From: Parcubacteria group bacterium
GTDB lineage: Bacteria > Patescibacteriota > Minisyncoccia > UBA6257 > JAAZHW01
Length of the DNA stretch: 15,189 nt
Direction: 5' to 3'
Assembly: GCA_012510515.1 (NCBI GenBank)
Contig: JAAZHW010000037.1
Location: 1 to 15,189, forward strand
The notes under the pieces are model-generated. The model was given only the letters and a program-made list of their open reading frames with translations. It made no database searches and was not told the origin of the DNA. The translations under genes and the position numbers were made by a program. Each line of letters starts with the position of its first letter. Position 1 is the stretch's first letter. Positions 1,719 through 13,461 of the stretch are shown here, in pieces.

Positions 1719-3398
1719 ATGGAAAACGATGATAAAGAAAAAAAATTAGAAGAAATATTATCTACTGTTAAAGAATCAGCTGAAGAAAGAGAAGCTAAAA
1801 GATTAGCGGAAAATTTGAATTTAGAATATATTGATTTGACTAGATTTGCGCCGCAAACTCAGCCATTATCTTTAATTAGTGAAGAAGAATCGCGAAGAGC
1901 TTTGTGTGTGCCATTTAATTCACAACAAAGAGAAGTTTTTTTAGCTTGTAAAAATCCGGCTTTAGAAGCGACTCAGCAAATTATTAATAATTTAAAAAAT
2001 CAAGGTTATAAGGTGCAAATTTTTATTGTTTCTCTTAATTCTTTGGAAAATTTATGGAAGGGGTATCAGTTTATCACTGGTCGAAAAAAAAATATTACAG
2101 GTGGATTAGAGATTAATAAGGAACAATTAGCTCAATTATTTCAAGAAATTAAAAATATTGCTATTTTGAAAGAAAAAATAAAAAGCTTTGAGAGTCCTTA
2201 TATTTCTCAAATTTTTGAAATTATTTTAGCCGGCGCTTTAAAAATGGATGCTTCTGATATTCACATTGAACCAGAAGAAATGGCCGTAAGATTGCGTTAT
2301 CGATTAGATGGCGTTCTTCAAGACATATCTGATATTTCAGAGCATTATTATCGTTCTATTCTTTCTCGAATTAAATTATTAGGAGGAATGAAAATAAATA
2401 TTCACACTTCGCCTCAAGATGGTCGTTTTACCATTAAAACAGATGAAGCGGATATTGAAGTGCGTGTTTCTATTATTCCGAGCGCTTACGGGGAAACAAT
2501 CGTTATGCGTTTATTAGATCCGCGAAAAATTAAATTGGATTTAAAAGATTTAGGATTTAGAGAAGATGATTTAGCCGTTATTGAAGAACAAATTGCTCGT
2601 CCTAATGGTTTGATTTTAAATACCGGTCCCACTGGTTCTGGTAAGACAACTACTTTATACGCTTTTTTACAGAAAATTTATAATCCCGAAATTAAAATTA
2701 TTACTATTGAGGACCCAATAGAATATCATTTAGAAGGAATTACTCAAACTCAAGTAAATTTAACTAGAGATTATACTTTTGCTAGTGGTTTACGCTCTAT
2801 TCTACGACAAGACCCCGATGTTATTTTAATTGGAGAAATTCGAGACAATGAAACAGCAGAAATTGCAATGAACGCGGCTTTAACTGGACATATTGTTTTT
2901 TCTACTCTTCATACTAATGACGCTTGTGGAGCTATTCCGCGGTTGCTGGATATGAAAGTTCAATCAGCGATTTTGGCGCCTGCTTTAAATTTAATTATTG
3001 CTCAACGATTATTAAGAAAATTATGTGTTCATTGTAAAGAAGAGGTTGAGGCGACGCCAGAACAATCCGAAAAAATAAAATCAATGATGGCTAAAATGCC
3101 CGAGAGAGTAAAAAAACCAAATTTAGGCAATAAAATAACTTTTTATAAATCAAAAGGTTGTAATGAATGTAATGGCACGGGTTATAAAGGGCGAGTGGCA
3201 GTAGCGGAATTATTAGTAGTTGATAGAGATATTCAAGATTTGATTTCTCGTGATGATAAAATTCCGAACGCTAATGAAATTAAAGATTTGGCTTTAAAAA
3301 AAGGAATGACAACAATGGAAGACGATGCTGTTTTGAAAATTTTAACTGGCATTACGAGTTTGTCTGAAGCCGAAAACGTAATTGGAAAAATATTTTAA
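1719..3398 (+). CDS. pilB: Type IV pilus assembly / type II secretion ATPase (PilB/GspE family)
   Basis: This 559-residue protein has the length usual for GspE/PilB hexameric ATPases, which power pilin polymerisation at the cytoplasmic face of the inner membrane. The N-terminal ~150 residues fit a short MshEN-type domain. The ATPase core includes 'ASDIHIEP' and an Asp/His-box region. The Walker A motif GPTGSGKTTT is at about residues 303-312, with Lys309. The Walker B region DPDVILIGEIRD is at about 365-376, with Glu373, and is followed by the His-box 'GHIVFSTLHTNDA'. Two Cys pairs, C436-x2-C439 and C481-x2-C484, form the zinc-binding insert typical of PilB/GspE. All catalytic motifs are intact, so the enzyme should be active. 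No other pilus genes (pilC, pilM, pilin) are visible here. The gene symbol is a family-level choice; GspE would be equally defensible. No Shine-Dalgarno sequence precedes the ATG. Confidence 0.93.
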   Translation: MENDDKEKKLEEILSTVKESAEEREAKRLAENLNLEYIDLTRFAPQTQPLSLISEEESRRALCVPFNSQQREVFLACKNPALEATQQIINNLKNQGYKVQIFIVSLNSLENLWKGYQFITGRKKNITGGLEINKEQLAQLFQEIKNIAILKEKIKSFESPYISQIFEIILAGALKMDASDIHIEPEEMAVRLRYRLDGVLQDISDISEHYYRSILSRIKLLGGMKINIHTSPQDGRFTIKTDEADIEVRVSIIPSAYGETIVMRLLDPRKIKLDLKDLGFREDDLAVIEEQIARPNGLILNTGPTGSGKTTTLYAFLQKIYNPEIKIITIEDPIEYHLEGITQTQVNLTRDYTFASGLRSILRQDPDVILIGEIRDNETAEIAMNAALTGHIVFSTLHTNDACGAIPRLLDMKVQSAILAPALNLIIAQRLLRKLCVHCKEEVEATPEQSEKIKSMMAKMPERVKKPNLGNKITFYKSKGCNECNGTGYKGRVAVAELLVVDRDIQDLISRDDKIPNANEIKDLALKKGMTTMEDDAVLKILTGITSLSEAENVIGKIF

Positions 3399-3425: not shown

Positions 3426-3454
3426 TTGACAAAAGTTATTATTATTTATATAAT
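3426..3454 (+). promoter_or_regulatory. Consensus sigma70-type promoter (upstream of ncRNA)
   Basis: TTGACA (3426-3431), a 17-nt spacer and TATAAT (3449-3454) match the sigma70 consensus perfectly. Transcription would start near 3461 and run rightward into the ncRNA region. There is no coding sequence downstream before 4323, so it probably adds a longer precursor or alternative start for the ncRNA. Confidence 0.75.
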
Positions 3455-3515: not shown

Positions 3516-3557
3516 AATAGTTAAACTATTGACATATATATTATTCTATGTTATAAT
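3516..3557 (+). promoter_or_regulatory. Consensus promoter of the ncRNA with overlapping inverted repeat
   Basis: TTGACA (3529-3534), a 17-nt spacer and TATAAT (3552-3557) give a second perfect sigma70-type promoter about 103 nt after the first. Its expected start site is near 3564. A perfect 7-bp inverted repeat, AATAGTT-A-AACTATT (3516-3530), runs into the -35 element and could be an operator. Whether any regulator binds there is unknown. Confidence 0.75.
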
Positions 3558-3563
3558 AACCTT

Positions 3564-3790
3564 GTTCTTAAAAAAAGGAAATTGTGTAAATGGCCTTTTC
3601 AACCTGGGGGCAATTGGCGTTATTTTTTAACCCAATTAATAGCCTATAGGGAATTTTTTTAAGGGTAACTTGGTGGAAACTGGGTTATTTTGTCCGCTTG
3701 TTATTGTGGACTAGCCTTAGAAAATTCTTGAGCTCGCATTTTGTTTGCGAGATTTAATTGCCTCCGGGTTGAAGGGGCTATTTTTATTTT
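3564..3790 (+). ncRNA. Unrecognised structured small RNA with 25-bp closing helix
   Basis: No protein-coding signal is present, but pairing is strong. Positions 3591-3615 pair with 3756-3780 for 25 consecutive base pairs (20 Watson-Crick, 5 G-U), extended by three A-U pairs into the following T-run. Inside are a helix of about 13 bp with one bulge (3651-3664 with 3715-3727), a 6-bp hairpin GTCCGC/GTGGAC (3692-3711), a 6-bp hairpin CTCGCA/TGCGAG (3733-3751), and a possible 7-bp pseudoknot TAACCCA (3628-3634) with TGGGTTA (3681-3687). A consensus promoter lies just upstream, and TTTTTATTTT (3781-3790) follows the closing helix, consistent with intrinsic termination. Long closing helix, size and strong promoter recall 6S RNA, but I cannot align it to 6S. 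I see no tmRNA T-arm or CCA end, no RNase P 'GAGGAAAGTCC' core and no SRP 'GTCCGGAAGG' loop. The family is therefore unassigned. Confidence 0.75.
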
Positions 3791-3813: not shown

Positions 3814-3846
3814 GTGGCGGCGAAAGCCTTTGGCTTTCGCCGCCAC
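3814..3846. repeat. Perfect 15-bp hairpin with GGCGGCGAA arm
   Basis: GTGGCGGCGAAAGCC (3814-3828) pairs perfectly with 3832-3846 around a 3-nt loop. It is far more GC-rich than its surroundings and shares the GGCGGCGAA arm with the hairpin at 4212-4245. It lies 24 nt past the ncRNA's T-run. It could be a backup terminator, but the following CGTTTGTTT is a poor U-tract. Confidence 0.8.
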
Positions 3847-3858
3847 CGTTTGTTTAAT

Positions 3859-3975
3859 GTCATCCTGAGGGTTTCAACCCCTGCCTGCCGGCAGGCAGGC
3901 GAAGGATCCCATGTCTTTCAGCAATAATCAGCAATCATTACTGTGGATGGGATTCTTCGCTACGCTCAGAATGAC
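3859..3975. repeat. Composite palindromic repeat, copy B1
   Basis: One hairpin has arms GTCATCCTGAG (from 3859) and GAAGGATCCC (3901-3910), with an internal perfect 20-bp palindrome at 3880-3899 made of CCTG/CCGG blocks. A conserved spacer of about 38 nt follows. A second hairpin, in opposite orientation, has arms GGGATTCTTC (3949-3958) and AGAATGAC (3968-3975). Read on the - strand, the spacer (CACAGTAATGATTGCTGATT...) matches the spacer of the copy at 13365-13461. Confidence 0.85.
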
Positions 3976-3990
3976 AGCTGTTTTTTTAGC

Positions 3991-4118
3991 GTCATCCTGA
4001 ACGCAGTCCCGCCTACGGCGGGTAAAGAAGAATCCCACGGCTTTCAAGAAATATACAACTATCACTGCTGTGCGTGGGATTCCTGCCTATCGGTAAGCGG
4101 GGCTTCACTCAGGATGAC
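3991..4118. repeat. Composite palindromic repeat, copy B2
   Basis: This copy runs from GTCATCCTGA (3991) through CCCGCCTACGGCGGG and AAGAATCCCACG, then a spacer, then GTGGGATTCC, ending at AGGATGAC (4111-4118). On the - strand its spacer reads CAGCAGTGATAGTTG..., matching the spacer at 1-63. The core CCCGCCTACGGCGGG is also present in the copy at 13474-13530. Open frames across this region are products of the repeat and not genes. Confidence 0.85.
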
Positions 4119-4211
4119 ATCGGTGAGAGATTATATTTAAAATCAGACTAATAAATACTTATTTTAAAAATTTTTTATTTATTAAAACAATCTATTAAAA
4201 ATGATAGTTAG
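4119..4211. other. Non-coding AT-rich linker
   Basis: This stretch joins repeat B2 to the next hairpin. It begins with ATCGGTGAG, which also follows the copy ending at 13461 in the form ATCGGTAAG. The rest is A/T-only low-complexity DNA with weak inverted AATAAA/TTTATT segments. No gene is visible. Confidence 0.6.
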
Positions 4212-4275
4212 GCGGCGGCGAAGTTTTAAAAAACTTCGCCGCCGCTTCTATTCGTTTTTCGTTTTTCGTTTTTTT
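4212..4275 (+). terminator. GC-rich 16-bp hairpin followed by CGTTTTT tandem repeat
   Basis: A perfect 16-bp stem begins GCGGCGGCGAAG (4212-4227 with 4230-4245) around AA. After TTCTATT come three tandem CGTTTTT units (4253-4275), giving an interrupted T-rich tract. The arrangement could act as a terminator for upstream rightward transcription just before alaS. The tract starts 7 nt after the stem, which is further than in classical intrinsic terminators, so function is uncertain. The hairpin itself is unambiguous. Confidence 0.55.
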
Positions 4276-4322: not shown

Positions 4323-6098
4323 ATGACAGCTAATGAATTAAGAGAAAAATTTTTAAAATTTTTTGAAGAACGAGAGCATAAAATTTTACCATCTTCATCT
4401 TTAATTCCCGAAAATGATCCAACGGTACTTTTTACAACAGCCGGAATGCACTCTCTAATTCCTTTTTTATTAGGAGAAAAACATCCAGCCGGTTCTCGTT
4501 TGTGTAAAATTCAAGAATGTTTAAGAACAGATGATATTGAAAAAGTTGGAGATATTGCGCATTTAACCTTTTTTGAAATGTTGGGCAACTGGTCATTGGG
4601 TGATTATTTTAAAAAAGAAGCAATAGAATGGAGTTACGAATTTTTAACAGCCAAAGATTGGTTAAATTTAGATAAAGATAAATTAGCGATAACGTGTTTT
4701 GGAAATGATAAGCAATTTTCGCGCGATGAAGAATCAGCTCAAATTTGGGAAAATTTAGGGATTGCTAAAAATCGCATCGCTTTTTTAGGAAAAAAAGATA
4801 ATTGGTGGGGTCCCATTAATGATGCTGGTCCTTGTGGTCCGGATACAGAAATATTTTATTGGGTAGGCGAAAGCAAAGCGCCAGAAGTTTTTGATCCGCA
4901 AAATAATAATTGGGTAGAAATTTGGAATAATGTTTTTATGACTTATAACAAAACCAAAGAAGGAAATTTTGAATTACTTCAACAAAAAAATGTTGATACG
5001 GGAATGGGATTAGAACGGACATTAGCGGTGATTAATCATCTGCCATCGGTTTTTGAAACAGAACTTTTTTTGCCGTTGATAAAACAATTAGAATTAATTA
5101 GTAAAAAGAAATACGAAAATTATCCAAGAGAATTTCGAATTATTGCCGACCATTTAAAAGCAGCTATTTTTCTTTTGTCAGAAAAATTAGAGCCTTCTAA
5201 TGTTGAACGAGGTTATGTTTTAAGAAGATTGATTAGAAGAGCAGTGCGTTTCGGACGTTTGTTAGAGATTAAAGAAATTTTTTCTTTTAAAATGCTGGCG
5301 CCCGTAATAGAAATTTATGGCAATGTTTATCCTTTAATTAAAGAAAATAAAGATTTTATTGAGGAACAATTAGTTAAAGAAGAAGAAAAATTTAGTAAAA
5401 CTTTATTAAAAGGAATGAATATTTTAGAAAAAATAGTTGAAAATCAAAAATCTTTTTCTGGCAAACAAGCTTTTGATTTATATCAAAGCTATGGTTTTCC
5501 TTTAGAATTAATTAAAGAAATAATAAAAGAAAAAGACATCAGGTTTGATGAAAAAGAATTTGAAGAAGAATTTAAAAAACATCAAGAATTATCGCGAACA
5601 GCTTCATCGGGAATGTTTAAGGGGGGATTAACAACTCATTCCGAAAAAGCAATAAAATATCACACCGCCACACATCTTTTGCATCGGGCATTAAGAGATG
5701 TTTTGGGTGAAGAAGTTGAGCAGAGAGGTAGTAATATTAATGAAGAACGTTTGCGATTTGATTATTCCTGTTCTAAAAAACCGACAGCTGAACAATTAAA
5801 AAAAATAGAAGAAATTGTTAATGAAAAAATTCAAGAAAATTTGTCAGTAATTAAAAAAGAGATGAGTTTAAAAGAAGCCAAAGAATTAGGAGCAATTGGA
5901 CTTTTTGAAGATAAATATGGAGAAAGGGTGAGTGTTTATTTTATCGGCGGAGAAGAAAATAATTTGAAGACGGCTTATTCTAAAGAAATTTGTGGTGGGC
6001 CTCATGTAATTAATACTAATGTTTTGGGTTATTTTAAAATTATAAAAGAAGAAGCAGTTTCTTCGGGGGTAAGAAGAATCAAGGCTATTTTAGAATAA
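4323..6098 (+). CDS. alaS: Alanyl-tRNA synthetase, minimal form
   Basis: This class II enzyme charges tRNA-Ala with alanine. It has 591 residues, against roughly 875 in E. coli. The catalytic domain is clear from 'LIPENDPTVLFTTAGM', 'HLTFFEMLGNWSLGDYFK', 'DAGPCGPDTEIFYW', 'NVDTGMGLERTLAVI' and 'RIIADHLKAAIFLL...RGYVLRRLIRRAVRFGR', with tRNA-recognition helices up to about residue 430. The editing domain is present: HTATHLLH at residues 447-454 (the HxxxH site) and CGGPH near the end in place of the usual CGGTH. Compared with E. coli, the segment before the editing site is shorter by about 110 residues, which corresponds to the beta-barrel subdomain carrying 'FYAESGGQVGD'. The protein ends at 'GVRRIKAILE', so the C-Ala domain is absent. 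Both losses look like clean domain deletions because the reading frame is intact and the conserved blocks on either side remain. No Shine-Dalgarno sequence is seen. Confidence 0.96.
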   Translation: MTANELREKFLKFFEEREHKILPSSSLIPENDPTVLFTTAGMHSLIPFLLGEKHPAGSRLCKIQECLRTDDIEKVGDIAHLTFFEMLGNWSLGDYFKKEAIEWSYEFLTAKDWLNLDKDKLAITCFGNDKQFSRDEESAQIWENLGIAKNRIAFLGKKDNWWGPINDAGPCGPDTEIFYWVGESKAPEVFDPQNNNWVEIWNNVFMTYNKTKEGNFELLQQKNVDTGMGLERTLAVINHLPSVFETELFLPLIKQLELISKKKYENYPREFRIIADHLKAAIFLLSEKLEPSNVERGYVLRRLIRRAVRFGRLLEIKEIFSFKMLAPVIEIYGNVYPLIKENKDFIEEQLVKEEEKFSKTLLKGMNILEKIVENQKSFSGKQAFDLYQSYGFPLELIKEIIKEKDIRFDEKEFEEEFKKHQELSRTASSGMFKGGLTTHSEKAIKYHTATHLLHRALRDVLGEEVEQRGSNINEERLRFDYSCSKKPTAEQLKKIEEIVNEKIQENLSVIKKEMSLKEAKELGAIGLFEDKYGERVSVYFIGGEENNLKTAYSKEICGGPHVINTNVLGYFKIIKEEAVSSGVRRIKAILE

Positions 6099-6143: not shown

Positions 6144-7388
6144 ATGAATTTATTCAGCATTTTTAATAAAAATTGGAATTCGGTATTTTGTTTTTTTGGT
6201 AGTTTAAACGAGATTGATGCAATTTTTGCTTCAGTAAATTTTGATTTTAGAAAAATAAAAATAGATAAATATTGGCAATGGTTTAATTATACCGAAGAAG
6301 GATTTGGTGAAGAAGATTTTGTAGAAAAATTAACGGAATTGATTAAAAAAGTTTCAAAAAAAAGTTTATTAATAATTTGTTTAGAAGAACCATTTGCTAA
6401 ATCAACCAAAACAAGACTCTCGGTTATTAGAGAAAACCCTTTGATTCCTATTGATAATGATGATTTAGAAAATATTATTTTAAATTTAGTTTGGCGATTA
6501 TATGATAAAGAGCGGATGTATGTTGCTCAACAATTAAAAATTCCGGAGTGGGACGTGGTATTGGTTGAAGCAAAAATTAGTGAACCAAAAATTGATGATA
6601 AAAAAATTTTAAACCCCATTGGTTTTAGAGGAAAAACAATGTCTTTTTGTTTAGAAAATACCTATTTATATTATTTGTTTTGGGAAACAATAAAGAACAT
6701 TTTAGAATCGGGAAAAGGAGAATTATTGGTTTGCGCTGAAAAAAATTTGCTTTTTGATAAAAATTTTTCTTTAATAAACAAAGGAGAAAAAATATTATTA
6801 GTGAATATTGGTTTGTATTCAACGGGTGTTGGAATTATGGGAAATTATTTAAATTCTTTTAAGCATTTTAATTGGGGGAAAATAAATTTAGAAAAAGTAA
6901 TTAGTAAAAAACTTTCTGTTTCTGACAAGATTGCCAAAGATTTAATAAGAGATTATCAAGAAAATAAATTAAGTAAAAACGCCTTTGATTGGTTTAAAAA
7001 ATTATTAGAAAAAGAATTAAAATTATTAGTGGAAGGAATAATTTTAGTTTTAAAAGACGTGCCTCAAAAAGAAAATATTGAAACTATTTATTTAAGTGGT
7101 GAATTGCAAGAATTTCCTTTTCTTTTAGAGTTGTTAGAGAAACAAAAATGGTTACAATTAACTTATGGTAATAAAATAAATATTAAATTTTATCCTACTT
7201 CAGAATTAATAAAAGATTTAAATATAGAAATAATAAATTATAATAAAAATAAGATATCCAATACGGCAATTATTAATTTAAATTCCGCTTTTCTTATTAA
7301 TGAAAACAAGTATGAAGAAATGAATAAAATTTTAAAACGTCGAATAAAGTGGTTAAATAAAAATTTATTAAAACAAATTAATAAATAA
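6144..7388 (+). CDS. Divergent FtsA/PilM-like actin-fold protein (tentative)
   Basis: The protein has 414 residues, no signal peptide and no clear membrane segment. Its order of motifs resembles the FtsA/PilM branch of the actin-like ATPases. 'ILLVNIGLYSTGVGIMGN' (about residues 217-234) sits where family members have a 'DIGGGTT' phosphate-binding motif. It is followed by 'FNWGKINLEKVISKKLSVSDKIAKDLI', like the 'GG..hT..IA..L.is...AE..K' block, and then 'IETIYLSGELQEFPFLLELLE' (from about 313), like the 'I.L.GG...lpgl...l' adenosine motif. The usual acidic and glycine residues of the phosphate loop are poorly conserved, so ATP binding may be lost. Its neighbour, 10 nt downstream, is a membrane protein with a baseplate-J-like region, suggesting the two work together at the envelope. 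The fold assignment rests on motif pattern only. Confidence 0.55.
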   Translation: MNLFSIFNKNWNSVFCFFGSLNEIDAIFASVNFDFRKIKIDKYWQWFNYTEEGFGEEDFVEKLTELIKKVSKKSLLIICLEEPFAKSTKTRLSVIRENPLIPIDNDDLENIILNLVWRLYDKERMYVAQQLKIPEWDVVLVEAKISEPKIDDKKILNPIGFRGKTMSFCLENTYLYYLFWETIKNILESGKGELLVCAEKNLLFDKNFSLINKGEKILLVNIGLYSTGVGIMGNYLNSFKHFNWGKINLEKVISKKLSVSDKIAKDLIRDYQENKLSKNAFDWFKKLLEKELKLLVEGIILVLKDVPQKENIETIYLSGELQEFPFLLELLEKQKWLQLTYGNKINIKFYPTSELIKDLNIEIINYNKNKISNTAIINLNSAFLINENKYEEMNKILKRRIKWLNKNLLKQINK

Positions 7389-7398
7389 AATAAATAAA

Positions 7399-9219
7399 AT
7401 GAAAGCAGAAAATATTTACATTGATATTAATGATTCGGTATCTGATGTTGTGGAAAAAATAATAAATTCCTCAAACGACAACATCATTTTGATTATTCCG
7501 GAAAATGCCAAAATTAGTGAATCGATTTTAAATTTTCGCTTAATAAAACGAGAAGCTACTTCGGCAAACAAAACTCTTTATATTAATAGTGATATTGAAG
7601 AAGTTTTGTTGATGGCTAAAGATTTAGATATTAAAACTGTAAAGTTAGCAAATTTAAGTCGGCCGAAAATGAATGATAAAGTTTTTTTAGGCGATATTAG
7701 ACCACCTCAAAAAAGAAACAATCTAATTAAGAAAACAACTAAAGATAATTTTAAAAAATCAGTTGAATTTGTTAAAGAAAATAAAGAAGAAAATGAAATT
7801 AATTTTGAGGAAGAAAAAAATAAAGTAGAAAAAAATAGAGAGAGAGCAGACAAAGAAAAGCCGATGTCAAAAGAAAAAAAAGAAGAGATAAAAAATTTTA
7901 ATAAAACCTCTGATAAAAAATTTTTTACGGATTATTTTAAACAAGAGCAATTTAATGAAATAGAAATTTCCGAAAGAGAAATGAAACGAATAAAGCCAGA
8001 AAGGAAAAAAATTCATTTTAGTAAATTAGGACGAATTATTTTATGGGGAATAGGAATTGTTTTTGTTTTTGCTTTTATTTTTATTTACTTTTTAGCTAAC
8101 GCTAAAGTTAGTATTATTTCTAATAAATATAATTGGGAAAAAGAATTGCCAGTAATTGCTAATACCAATATTGAAAAAATTGATGAAAATAGTTTTAAAG
8201 ATCCTTTGACAAAAAAAATGTTGCCAATTGATGAAAACAATTTAGTTATTCCTTTAGAATACTTTGAATTGAGCCGTAATATTAGTCAAACCTTTAAAAC
8301 AACAGAAGTTAAAAATATAGAATCAAAAGCAAAAGGAGTAATAAGAATTTATAATGCCTATAATTCCAGTTCACAAACATTAGTCGCCACCACTCGATTT
8401 ATGAGTCCAGATGGAAAAATTTTTCGTTTAATTGATAAAGTGGTTGTTCCCGGCGCAAAAATAGAAAATGGCAAAATCATTCCTTCTTATATTGATGCTG
8501 AAGTTGTTGCCGATAAGCCCGGAGAGAGTTATAATATTGGTCCAACGAAGTTTACTATTCCGGGGTTTCAAGGAACGCCTCGTTATGAAACATTTTATGG
8601 TGAATCACTTAAGCCAATGACTGGTGGTTATATTGGTGAAACAAAAATAGTAGGTCAATCAGATGTTAATAAAGCTAAACAAAAAATTTTAGATATCGCT
8701 TTTGTTTCTTTAAATGAAGAATTAAAATCTAAAATTCCTCCAACAGCAGTTGTTTTAGATGATGCCAAGCAATTAATTTTGGTAGAATCTACTACTACTC
8801 CTAAAATTGGTGAAAAAGCAGATGAATTTGAATTAAGCGCTAAAGTTGTTTTAAAAAGCTTAGTGTTTGACGAAAATGATATAAAAAAATTATTTGAAAT
8901 TTTGGCTCGTCAAGAAAATTCTCAATTAAATGATAAAGAATTATTTAAATATAGTTTTAATTATGGCGCGCCACGAGTTGATTTTAGTGATAAAAAATTA
9001 TTGTCTTTTCCCGTGTTAGCGAAATTAACTTTTCGAGATAAAGTCAATGAAGCAGAATTTAAAAATCAATTAAGTGGTAAAAGTACTAAAGAATTAGAAG
9101 ATTTCTTTAGACAATATAAAACAATAGAAAAAGTTGATATTTTTATTTGGCCGAGTTTTTTGAAGTTTATGCCTTTAAACAACGATCGCATTCAAGTAAT
9201 GGTTGATGAAAATTTATAG
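7399..9219 (+). CDS. Single-pass membrane protein, baseplate J/gp47-like (Patescibacteria type)
   Basis: The protein has 606 residues in four parts. Residues 1 to about 105 form an alpha/beta domain ('IYIDINDSVSDVVEKIINSS', 'NIILIIPENAKISESILNFR', 'KTLYINSDIEEVLLMAKDL') of a kind I recognise from CPR proteins annotated as baseplate J family. Residues about 105-205 are a Lys/Glu-rich, probably disordered linker. One hydrophobic helix spans about 213-233 (IILWGIGIVFVFAFIFIYFL). The C-terminal ~370 residues are beta-rich and include 'AEVVADKPGESYNIGPTKFT' at about 367-386, the element resembling baseplate J proteins. With no signal peptide, the N-terminal domain is probably cytoplasmic and the C-terminal part outside. 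No phage structural genes are nearby, so this is probably a cellular envelope protein and not a prophage remnant. The function is not known to me. Confidence 0.72.
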   Translation: MKAENIYIDINDSVSDVVEKIINSSNDNIILIIPENAKISESILNFRLIKREATSANKTLYINSDIEEVLLMAKDLDIKTVKLANLSRPKMNDKVFLGDIRPPQKRNNLIKKTTKDNFKKSVEFVKENKEENEINFEEEKNKVEKNRERADKEKPMSKEKKEEIKNFNKTSDKKFFTDYFKQEQFNEIEISEREMKRIKPERKKIHFSKLGRIILWGIGIVFVFAFIFIYFLANAKVSIISNKYNWEKELPVIANTNIEKIDENSFKDPLTKKMLPIDENNLVIPLEYFELSRNISQTFKTTEVKNIESKAKGVIRIYNAYNSSSQTLVATTRFMSPDGKIFRLIDKVVVPGAKIENGKIIPSYIDAEVVADKPGESYNIGPTKFTIPGFQGTPRYETFYGESLKPMTGGYIGETKIVGQSDVNKAKQKILDIAFVSLNEELKSKIPPTAVVLDDAKQLILVESTTTPKIGEKADEFELSAKVVLKSLVFDENDIKKLFEILARQENSQLNDKELFKYSFNYGAPRVDFSDKKLLSFPVLAKLTFRDKVNEAEFKNQLSGKSTKELEDFFRQYKTIEKVDIFIWPSFLKFMPLNNDRIQVMVDENL

Positions 9220-13364: not shown

Positions 13365-13461
13365 GTCATTCTGAGCGTCAGCGAAGAATCCCACGCACAG
13401 TAGTGATTGCTGATTGTTTCTGAAATCCATGGGATCCTTCGGGCTTTGCCCTCAGGATGAC
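13365..13461. repeat. Composite palindromic repeat, copy C2
   Basis: This is a complete unit. The first hairpin has GTCATTCTGAGCG and GCGAAGAATCCCACG arms. The spacer is CACAGTAGTGATTGCTGATT and onward. The second hairpin has GGGATCCTTCGGG and CCCTCAGGATGAC arms. It is the clearest full-length example in the window, and its spacer matches the - strand of copy B1. Confidence 0.85.

Follow-up and report, generated by a model that had tools for sequence, protein, structure and literature searches.

The window, by which we mean the whole 15,189-nucleotide stretch of Parcubacteria DNA analysed here, contains between a pilB-like ATPase gene upstream (positions 1719-3398, + strand, PF00437) and the alanyl-tRNA synthetase gene alaS downstream (4323-6098, + strand, PF01411) a region of the + strand that is predicted to encode a structured RNA. 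The perfect sigma70-type promoter that a first-pass annotation of this DNA had placed ahead of the RNA is present at 3529-3557 on the + strand (TTGACA-17-TATAAT, 12/12, with a TG before the -10 element, i.e., an extended -10), and a second perfect sigma70-like promoter lies about 100 bp upstream of it (3426-3454, + strand). Judging from the position of the -10 element, the transcript probably has a 5' leader (3564-3588, + strand) that begins at the predicted start site and runs up to the closing helix P1, followed by the structured body (3589-3782, + strand), which is defined by the fold and by matches to two covariance models, R1 and R2 (3587-3785), both built with the window sequence. The T-run reported after the RNA corresponds to a T-rich stretch 3' of P1 (3781-3790, + strand), a possible terminator. 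Between the RNA and alaS, there are also two strong, terminator-like, GC-rich perfect hairpins with related arms (3814-3846 and 4210-4247). The alanyl-tRNA synthetase itself is a protein of only 591 amino acids with the catalytic and SAD domains and no other Pfam match at E 0.001 and, therefore, without a DHHA1 domain. Three further genes (195-1712, 6144-7388 and 7399-9219) encode proteins of 505, 414 and 606 amino acids, respectively, without any Pfam match.

The uninterrupted 25-bp closing helix noticed earlier is real and in fact longer. Positions 3591-3615 are complementary to 3756-3780 at 25/25 positions, including five G-U pairs, and three A-U pairs extend the outer end, giving a P1 of 27 bp (5' strand 3589-3615, 3' strand 3756-3782, all on the + strand as are the elements below) with 3588-3783 as one further A-U pair. 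Inward of P1, the fold continues with P2 (5' strand 3649-3664, 3' strand 3715-3729), which accounts for the inner helix of ~13 bp in the first-pass annotation, and hairpins are present as well, with the capped hairpin P3 (3665-3688), which carries a GGAA (GNRA) cap and tandem U-G/G-U pairs, and the 3'-side hairpin P4 (3733-3751). Two elements decorate this core. P1a is a 5'-side hairpin region (3616-3644) with GGC/GCC pairing and an alternative TTGG/CCAA hairpin, and at its position a hairpin recurs in several other families and orders; P3b (3691-3712) is an extra hairpin of the window's family, which has four members and of which one, the genome G003, lacks it. The RNA of the + strand has a folding energy of -89 kcal/mol (z = -8.65), which was reached by 0/200 shuffles; the corresponding values for the minus strand are -54.1 kcal/mol and z = -4.90. 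No ORF of at least 50 amino acids in the window's ORF list overlaps the RNA. We also considered a small protein encoded by a 19-codon ATG frame starting at 3590; by eye, the ATG is kept in G002 and lost in G001 and G003, and because the start codon is lost in these two genomes and P1 covaries, we rejected this frame.

A BLASTN search of 101 relatives gave convincing copies only in G001, G002 and G003, which together with the window make up the window's family; a short BLAST match in G093 (family f9) was discarded upon inspection of its surroundings, which hold no convincing copy. The covariance model R1, built from the four sequences of the window's family, matched 30/244 genomes of the order at E <= 0.1 and reached other families, although L071, L073 and L074, among its weakest matches, are chance hairpins and L075 is a fragment beside a real copy. 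The second model, R2, was built from the 24 rows of alignment A5, with L056 and L067 left out, and at E <= 0.01 it matched 191/244 genomes of the order, or 150/189 when only those of good quality are counted. In 167 of the 191 genomes the match is single, and where there is a second one, it is in some cases the same near-palindromic site read on the other strand. A third model, R3, built from the 36 canonical rows of alignment A8, adds four genomes that R2 had missed (G045, G062, G084 and G195), raising the count to at least 195/244 and lowering the number of order genomes without a match from 53 to 49; in family f9, R2 gave no match, and neither did R3 in the four members listed. Searched beyond the order, R3 matched 198/383 genomes of the class, including a few weak matches that are false and about 35 with E above 1e-6, and 19/379 genomes of the phylum, five of these outside the class; the E-values of all three models are rough due to a short calibration. 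Four weak R3 matches were inspected: ruvB and pilB flank the RNA in G254 (5.6e-9) and G278 (0.002), while the matches in G453 (L168, E 1e-4; a chance hairpin) and G014 (L171) proved false. At E <= 0.01, the RNA of the window itself is missed by R3; the link from the window to the class runs via R1, R2 and synteny. There is one copy in the window's genome and two real copies each in G069 (L172 and L173) and G032, where the extra copy (L175:2501-2636, - strand) keeps the full fold and has no evident promoter in the 60 nt examined. By comparison of genomes, these matches show a new structured RNA family of Parcubacteria that is present in most genomes of the order, usually once, and that, as seen by a model trained on this one order, is carried by roughly every second class genome sampled.

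A lack of homologs with compensatory changes had been put forward as the observation that would speak against a functional RNA; the outcome of this test favours the RNA. Among the four sequences of the window's family, 12/69 pairs changed on both sides, a number that exceeds every one of 500 shuffles. For the wider analysis, we used A8, which comprises 36 canonical members and leaves out the family of the window itself, families f12, f19, f26 and f4 (which bear P1a or are divergent), locus L092, the near-duplicates L065-L067, and L107; alignments A4, A6, A7 and A9 contribute to no count. In these 36 rows, 42/55 base pairs have both-side changes, the cells with both-side changes number 332 vs 112.9 +/- 10.2 in shuffles, and the covariation score is 0.504 compared to 0.214 after shuffling and at most 0.198 when partners were slid by 1-3 columns. 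Outside P4, which aligned less well (65.8% of cells paired), there are 251 G-U cells vs 53 A-C cells, and this large excess fixes the RNA strand as the + strand of the window. The proposal that selection acts on RNA structure is, therefore, well founded. The same is not true of the pseudoknot suggested in the first-pass annotation: the window's RNA could form 61 helices of at least 6 bp across the nested fold, and among the 12 of these richest in unpaired bases, none is fully kept by all four family members; moreover, the top 19 column pairs by APC-corrected mutual information in the 36 relatives all fall within nested helices.

The canonical members follow the order P1, P2, asymmetric internal loop, P3, P4 and, often, P5 on the 3' side, and the family spans about 120-200 nt. 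Canonical P1 has about 24 bp and a top of CUGUGGGC/GCCCACAG, with CUGUGGGC in the order and variants such as CUGGGGG or CUGCAGG elsewhere. The internal loop between P2 and P3 has UAG plus at least 2 nt on its 5' side in 28/36 members and UC on its 3' side in 34/36. In P3, the tandem U-G/G-U pairs are kept in 26 and 31 of 36, and the cap is UNCG in 25/36 aligned relatives, in place of the GGAA of the window. The 5' linker between P1 and P2 measures 1-8 nt in the 36 canonical members, and elsewhere, the window included, the hairpin P1a fills the 5' side of the P1-P2 junction.

The promoter accompanies the RNA. G001, G002 and G003 have a TTGACA/T-17-TATAAT promoter on the RNA's own strand, and in a sample of 76 loci chosen from the matches (71 of the class and five outside it) a promoter of at least 10/12 lies within 100 nt upstream on the RNA's own strand at 60 loci, the window included. 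For comparison, shuffles of the same loci lead to an expectation of 1.85, the downstream flanks gave 0 and the antisense strand gave 6. Outside the class, 3/5 loci reach 10/12. As for the 3' end, where an intrinsic terminator would consist of a short GC-rich hairpin and a T run, P1 plus a T-rich tail is present, but a T run near the 3' end was found at 55/76 loci vs 42.5 expected, i.e., its enrichment is weak. The first-pass annotation had also called the RNA abundant, and the promoter alone suggests that it may be.

With respect to its neighbours, we analysed 43 loci of the order, 15 loci of the class outside the order taken from the better matches, 20 lower-scoring class matches (the last 19 among the matches listed, with E 8e-11 to 2e-9, and G453 at 1e-4), all five matches outside the class, and seven further places. 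In the usual arrangement, ruvB and pilB flank the RNA, and both are encoded on the other strand. Based on BLASTP clusters, 40 of the 43 order loci have a pilB-type neighbour and 30 a ruvB-type neighbour; in the 15 class loci, the counts are 15/15 for pilB and 13/15 for ruvB, and among the 20 lower-scoring matches 18 are flanked by ruvB and pilB, a further one has pilB alone and the last is the chance hairpin L168. In G001, G002 and G003, the RNA and pilB are likewise on opposite strands, and ruvB comes next (matched by PF05496 in G002 and G003). Because these three genomes have both the own-strand promoter and the strand opposite to pilB, the transcribed strand is fixed and the window copy, which is co-directional with pilB and then alaS, is the flipped one; two other loci of the order, L052 and L072, are also flipped relative to pilB. 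The dispersed repeat GTCATCCTGA occurs in five copies in the window (3859-4118, 54-63 and 13452-13461; 0.01 expected), three of them close to the RNA, and in ten copies in the 3.2-kb G001 locus around its RNA, and these repeats may have helped to flip the window locus. Outside the class the setting is different, with a VanW-like gene directly on the convergent side in four of the five loci and a 145-aa ORF separating it from the RNA in the fifth (L131); upstream of the RNA, the two of these loci that were given to Pfam have a ClpP gene. Four of these five RNAs (L129-L132) share GCACGACAAG after the P1 top, which was not noticed in the class members read. The extra copy in G032 (L175) has no ruvB or pilB within 2.5 kb, and the other G032 copy lies between both. 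The VanW loci, the flipped window copy and L175 argue that the RNA is not tied to one neighbour gene. Consistently, a conserved co-directional downstream gene, as a riboswitch or cis leader would have, was not found, the first downstream ORF of at least 70 amino acids being on the opposite strand in 36/43 order loci.

We also searched for the RNA more widely with a narrow motif pattern. In a collection with one genome per species (84,980 species), it matched 12 records, which are assigned to Candidatus Harrisonbacteria (1), Candidatus Wolfebacteria (2), Parcubacteria (2), Patescibacteria (1), "bacterium" (5) and Spirochaetia (1); the titles of the records holding relatives bear out the earlier assignment to the CPR. 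Because the pattern is narrow, finding 9/85 of our own loci, it says little about the reach of the RNA beyond the phylum. In four of the 12 records, the RNA is identical over the 140 nt compared to that of genomes already searched, among them G040 of the order, a record titled Harrisonbacteria. The RNA on the Spirochaetia contig is exactly that of L062 from G236, a genome of the window's order, and we therefore take this record for a misnamed bin. A viral origin was rejected because a motif pattern that finds 25/85 of our own loci, hence a modest test, had 0 matches in viral contigs.

Together, neighbours and strands disfavour a leader, a riboswitch or an antisense element, and, as far as can be judged from genome comparison, the locus is very probably a free-standing gene for a trans-acting structured RNA. 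In our working model, the sigma70 promoter of this gene would drive strong, constitutive transcription, and the transcript would end at or just beyond the P1 helix. The RNA would be stable and act in trans as the RNA of a ribonucleoprotein, in which a protein or large machine would recognise the segments conserved in sequence (the P1 top, the UAG.../UC internal loop between P2 and P3, and P3 including the tandem wobble pairs), and the lower part of P1 would serve as scaffold together with the P4 and P5 tips. Since nearly all genomes of the order have the RNA and no single neighbour gene goes with it throughout, we tentatively favour a core gene-expression machine as its partner, a proposal that covers RNA polymerase and the ribosome together and to which we give somewhat less than an even chance. 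Moreover, the RNA is common to genomes of the class and to phylum members outside it that have different neighbour genes, and for this reason we suggest an old origin; with comparable reserve, we propose that it could be an undescribed CPR housekeeping ribonucleoprotein RNA that acts on polymerase or ribosome in cells without SRP or detectable 6S RNA.

Two special cases of this proposal name the partner. That the RNA associates with the ribosome or with translation, e.g., as a factor decoy or as a structural partner of the reduced CPR ribosome, is possible if on the whole unlikely. Tandem wobble pairs and a UNCG cap, both present in P3, are a style common in rRNA-protein sites, and near-universality in the order as well as the missing SRP M domain in 378/379 phylum genomes would agree with such a role. 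Against it, the RNA has no match to rRNA families at the gathering score. A 5.8S match at L088 is on the wrong strand, has an E of 0.15 and is chance-level.

The second special case, a CPR counterpart of 6S RNA, was raised in the first-pass annotation, and we regard it as rather doubtful. If it applied, the rod of P1, P2 and P3 might mimic an open promoter and bind the RNA polymerase holoenzyme, itself a doubtful assumption, and release might follow from short RNA synthesis at the P1 top, for which we would give no better odds. The size of about 120-200 nt, the long closing stem with a conserved GC-rich top beside an A/U-rich helix, the strong promoter and the near-universal presence in the order are all in line with this idea, and the role may be vacant in these bacteria since RF00013 (6S) matched 0/41 relatives. 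Because RF00013 found just 5/14 controls, four of the 14 being archaea, this absence is weak evidence. 6S RNA is defined by an open central bubble, in which the 5' side is single-stranded between the closing and apical stems. Such a bubble is absent from the 36 canonical members, with their 5' linker of 1-8 nt, and from others, which bear P1a at this place. In addition, even an E cut-off of 10 brought up no 6S match from Rfam in 20 short loci. Thus, membership in the 6S family is not supported, and what survives of the earlier suggestion is that the function might be 6S-like.

Returning to the free-standing RNA gene, its deep synteny with ruvB and pilB leaves room for a cis role within the class, for instance as an RNA antisense to the 3' end of pilB, as a terminator for both directions or as a promoter-proximal regulator that is shared. 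Position and strand at ruvB-pilB are conserved across the class, and the RNA often ends right next to the stop codon of pilB. Nevertheless, we consider a cis element of pilB or ruvB to be very improbable: the window copy, L052 and L072 are flipped, the five matches outside the class lie by VanW-like genes, the extra G032 copy has neither gene within 2.5 kb, and a terminator would need nothing nearly as elaborate as this structure. Finally, that there is no RNA gene and P1, a long inverted repeat with GTCATCCTGA repeats nearby in the window and in G001, is a DNA palindrome or mobile inverted repeat is scarcely credible given the ratio of G-U to A-C cells (251 vs 53), the single copy in the window's genome and the single match in 167/191 order genomes, the own-strand promoter and compensatory changes in separate helices.

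At the gathering score, Rfam scans of the window and 40 loci matched only the window's 16S rRNA. With permissive settings, low-scoring matches to unrelated families turned up here and there in the window region and in 20 short loci, and we take these for chance. No description of such an RNA was found among the matches listed for open-access literature on CPR and Parcubacteria RNAs, in the accessible portions of these sources (PMC8321541, PMC11109978, PMC8632094 and PMC10768705 included). With no Rfam match and no literature description found, we regard the RNA as a new family, in agreement with the new class that the first-pass annotation had considered. Its distribution and conserved place point to a basic job in the cell. 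To our knowledge, very few stable RNAs are near-universal across a large bacterial group, and a mostly single-copy, strongly promoted and conserved RNA would lengthen the short list of housekeeping RNAs, here in a bacterial group that ranks among the richest in species and the least cultured, and with an RNA that is missing from Rfam. It would also show that the reduced CPR genomes, from which SRP has been lost, have their own core RNA, either retained or acquired. Sequence, model, strand and promoter provide a concrete handle for pull-down and transcript tests.

Among the known stable RNAs, tmRNA (RF00023) and RNase P RNA (RF00010) are universal, and the new RNA scores below the thresholds of both models. 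In the window's genome, tmRNA and RNase P RNA are both encoded elsewhere, the former at C18 and the latter at C36 (200.3 bits); in the window, ARAGORN found no tmRNA, i.e., no tRNA-like ends with a tag reading frame, and there is no RNase P RNA match. The bacterial small SRP RNA is a stable housekeeping RNA that forms a rod with a capped hairpin, and the new RNA (compared with RF00169) has this architecture in common with it. We considered an SRP RNA identity because an SRP RNA was missing: RF00169 matched 0/9 genomes compared to 13/14 controls. However, Rfam scans of the RNA loci gave no match to SRP families, and PF02978, the SRP M domain (SRP_SPB), was found in 0/41 relatives and 14/14 controls, and in 1/379 phylum genomes (G852 only), the window's genome being without it. 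Thus, unlike for an SRP RNA, there is no encoded Ffh M domain for binding, and with the M domain missing from 378/379 phylum genomes this identity was dropped; that SRP subunits are absent from many CPR bacteria has been published (PMC8080830).

Comparative genomics has also uncovered conserved structured RNAs with long closing stems, such as raiA, OLE, ROOL and GOLLD. The new RNA shares the long closing stem with these and other orphan large RNAs, but differs from them in that the window and 40 loci had no match to raiA, OLE, ROOL or GOLLD at the gathering score and none appeared in the permissive scans. The likeness to 6S RNA (RF00013) comprises the length range, the rod with a long closing stem, and a housekeeping-like gene with a sigma70 promoter. 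In contrast to 6S RNA, the new RNA has no covariance-model match, carries hairpins at the junction instead of an open central bubble, has a P3 hairpin conserved in sequence and is syntenic with ruvB and pilB. Should it prove to be a polymerase decoy, it would then belong to the 6S kind.
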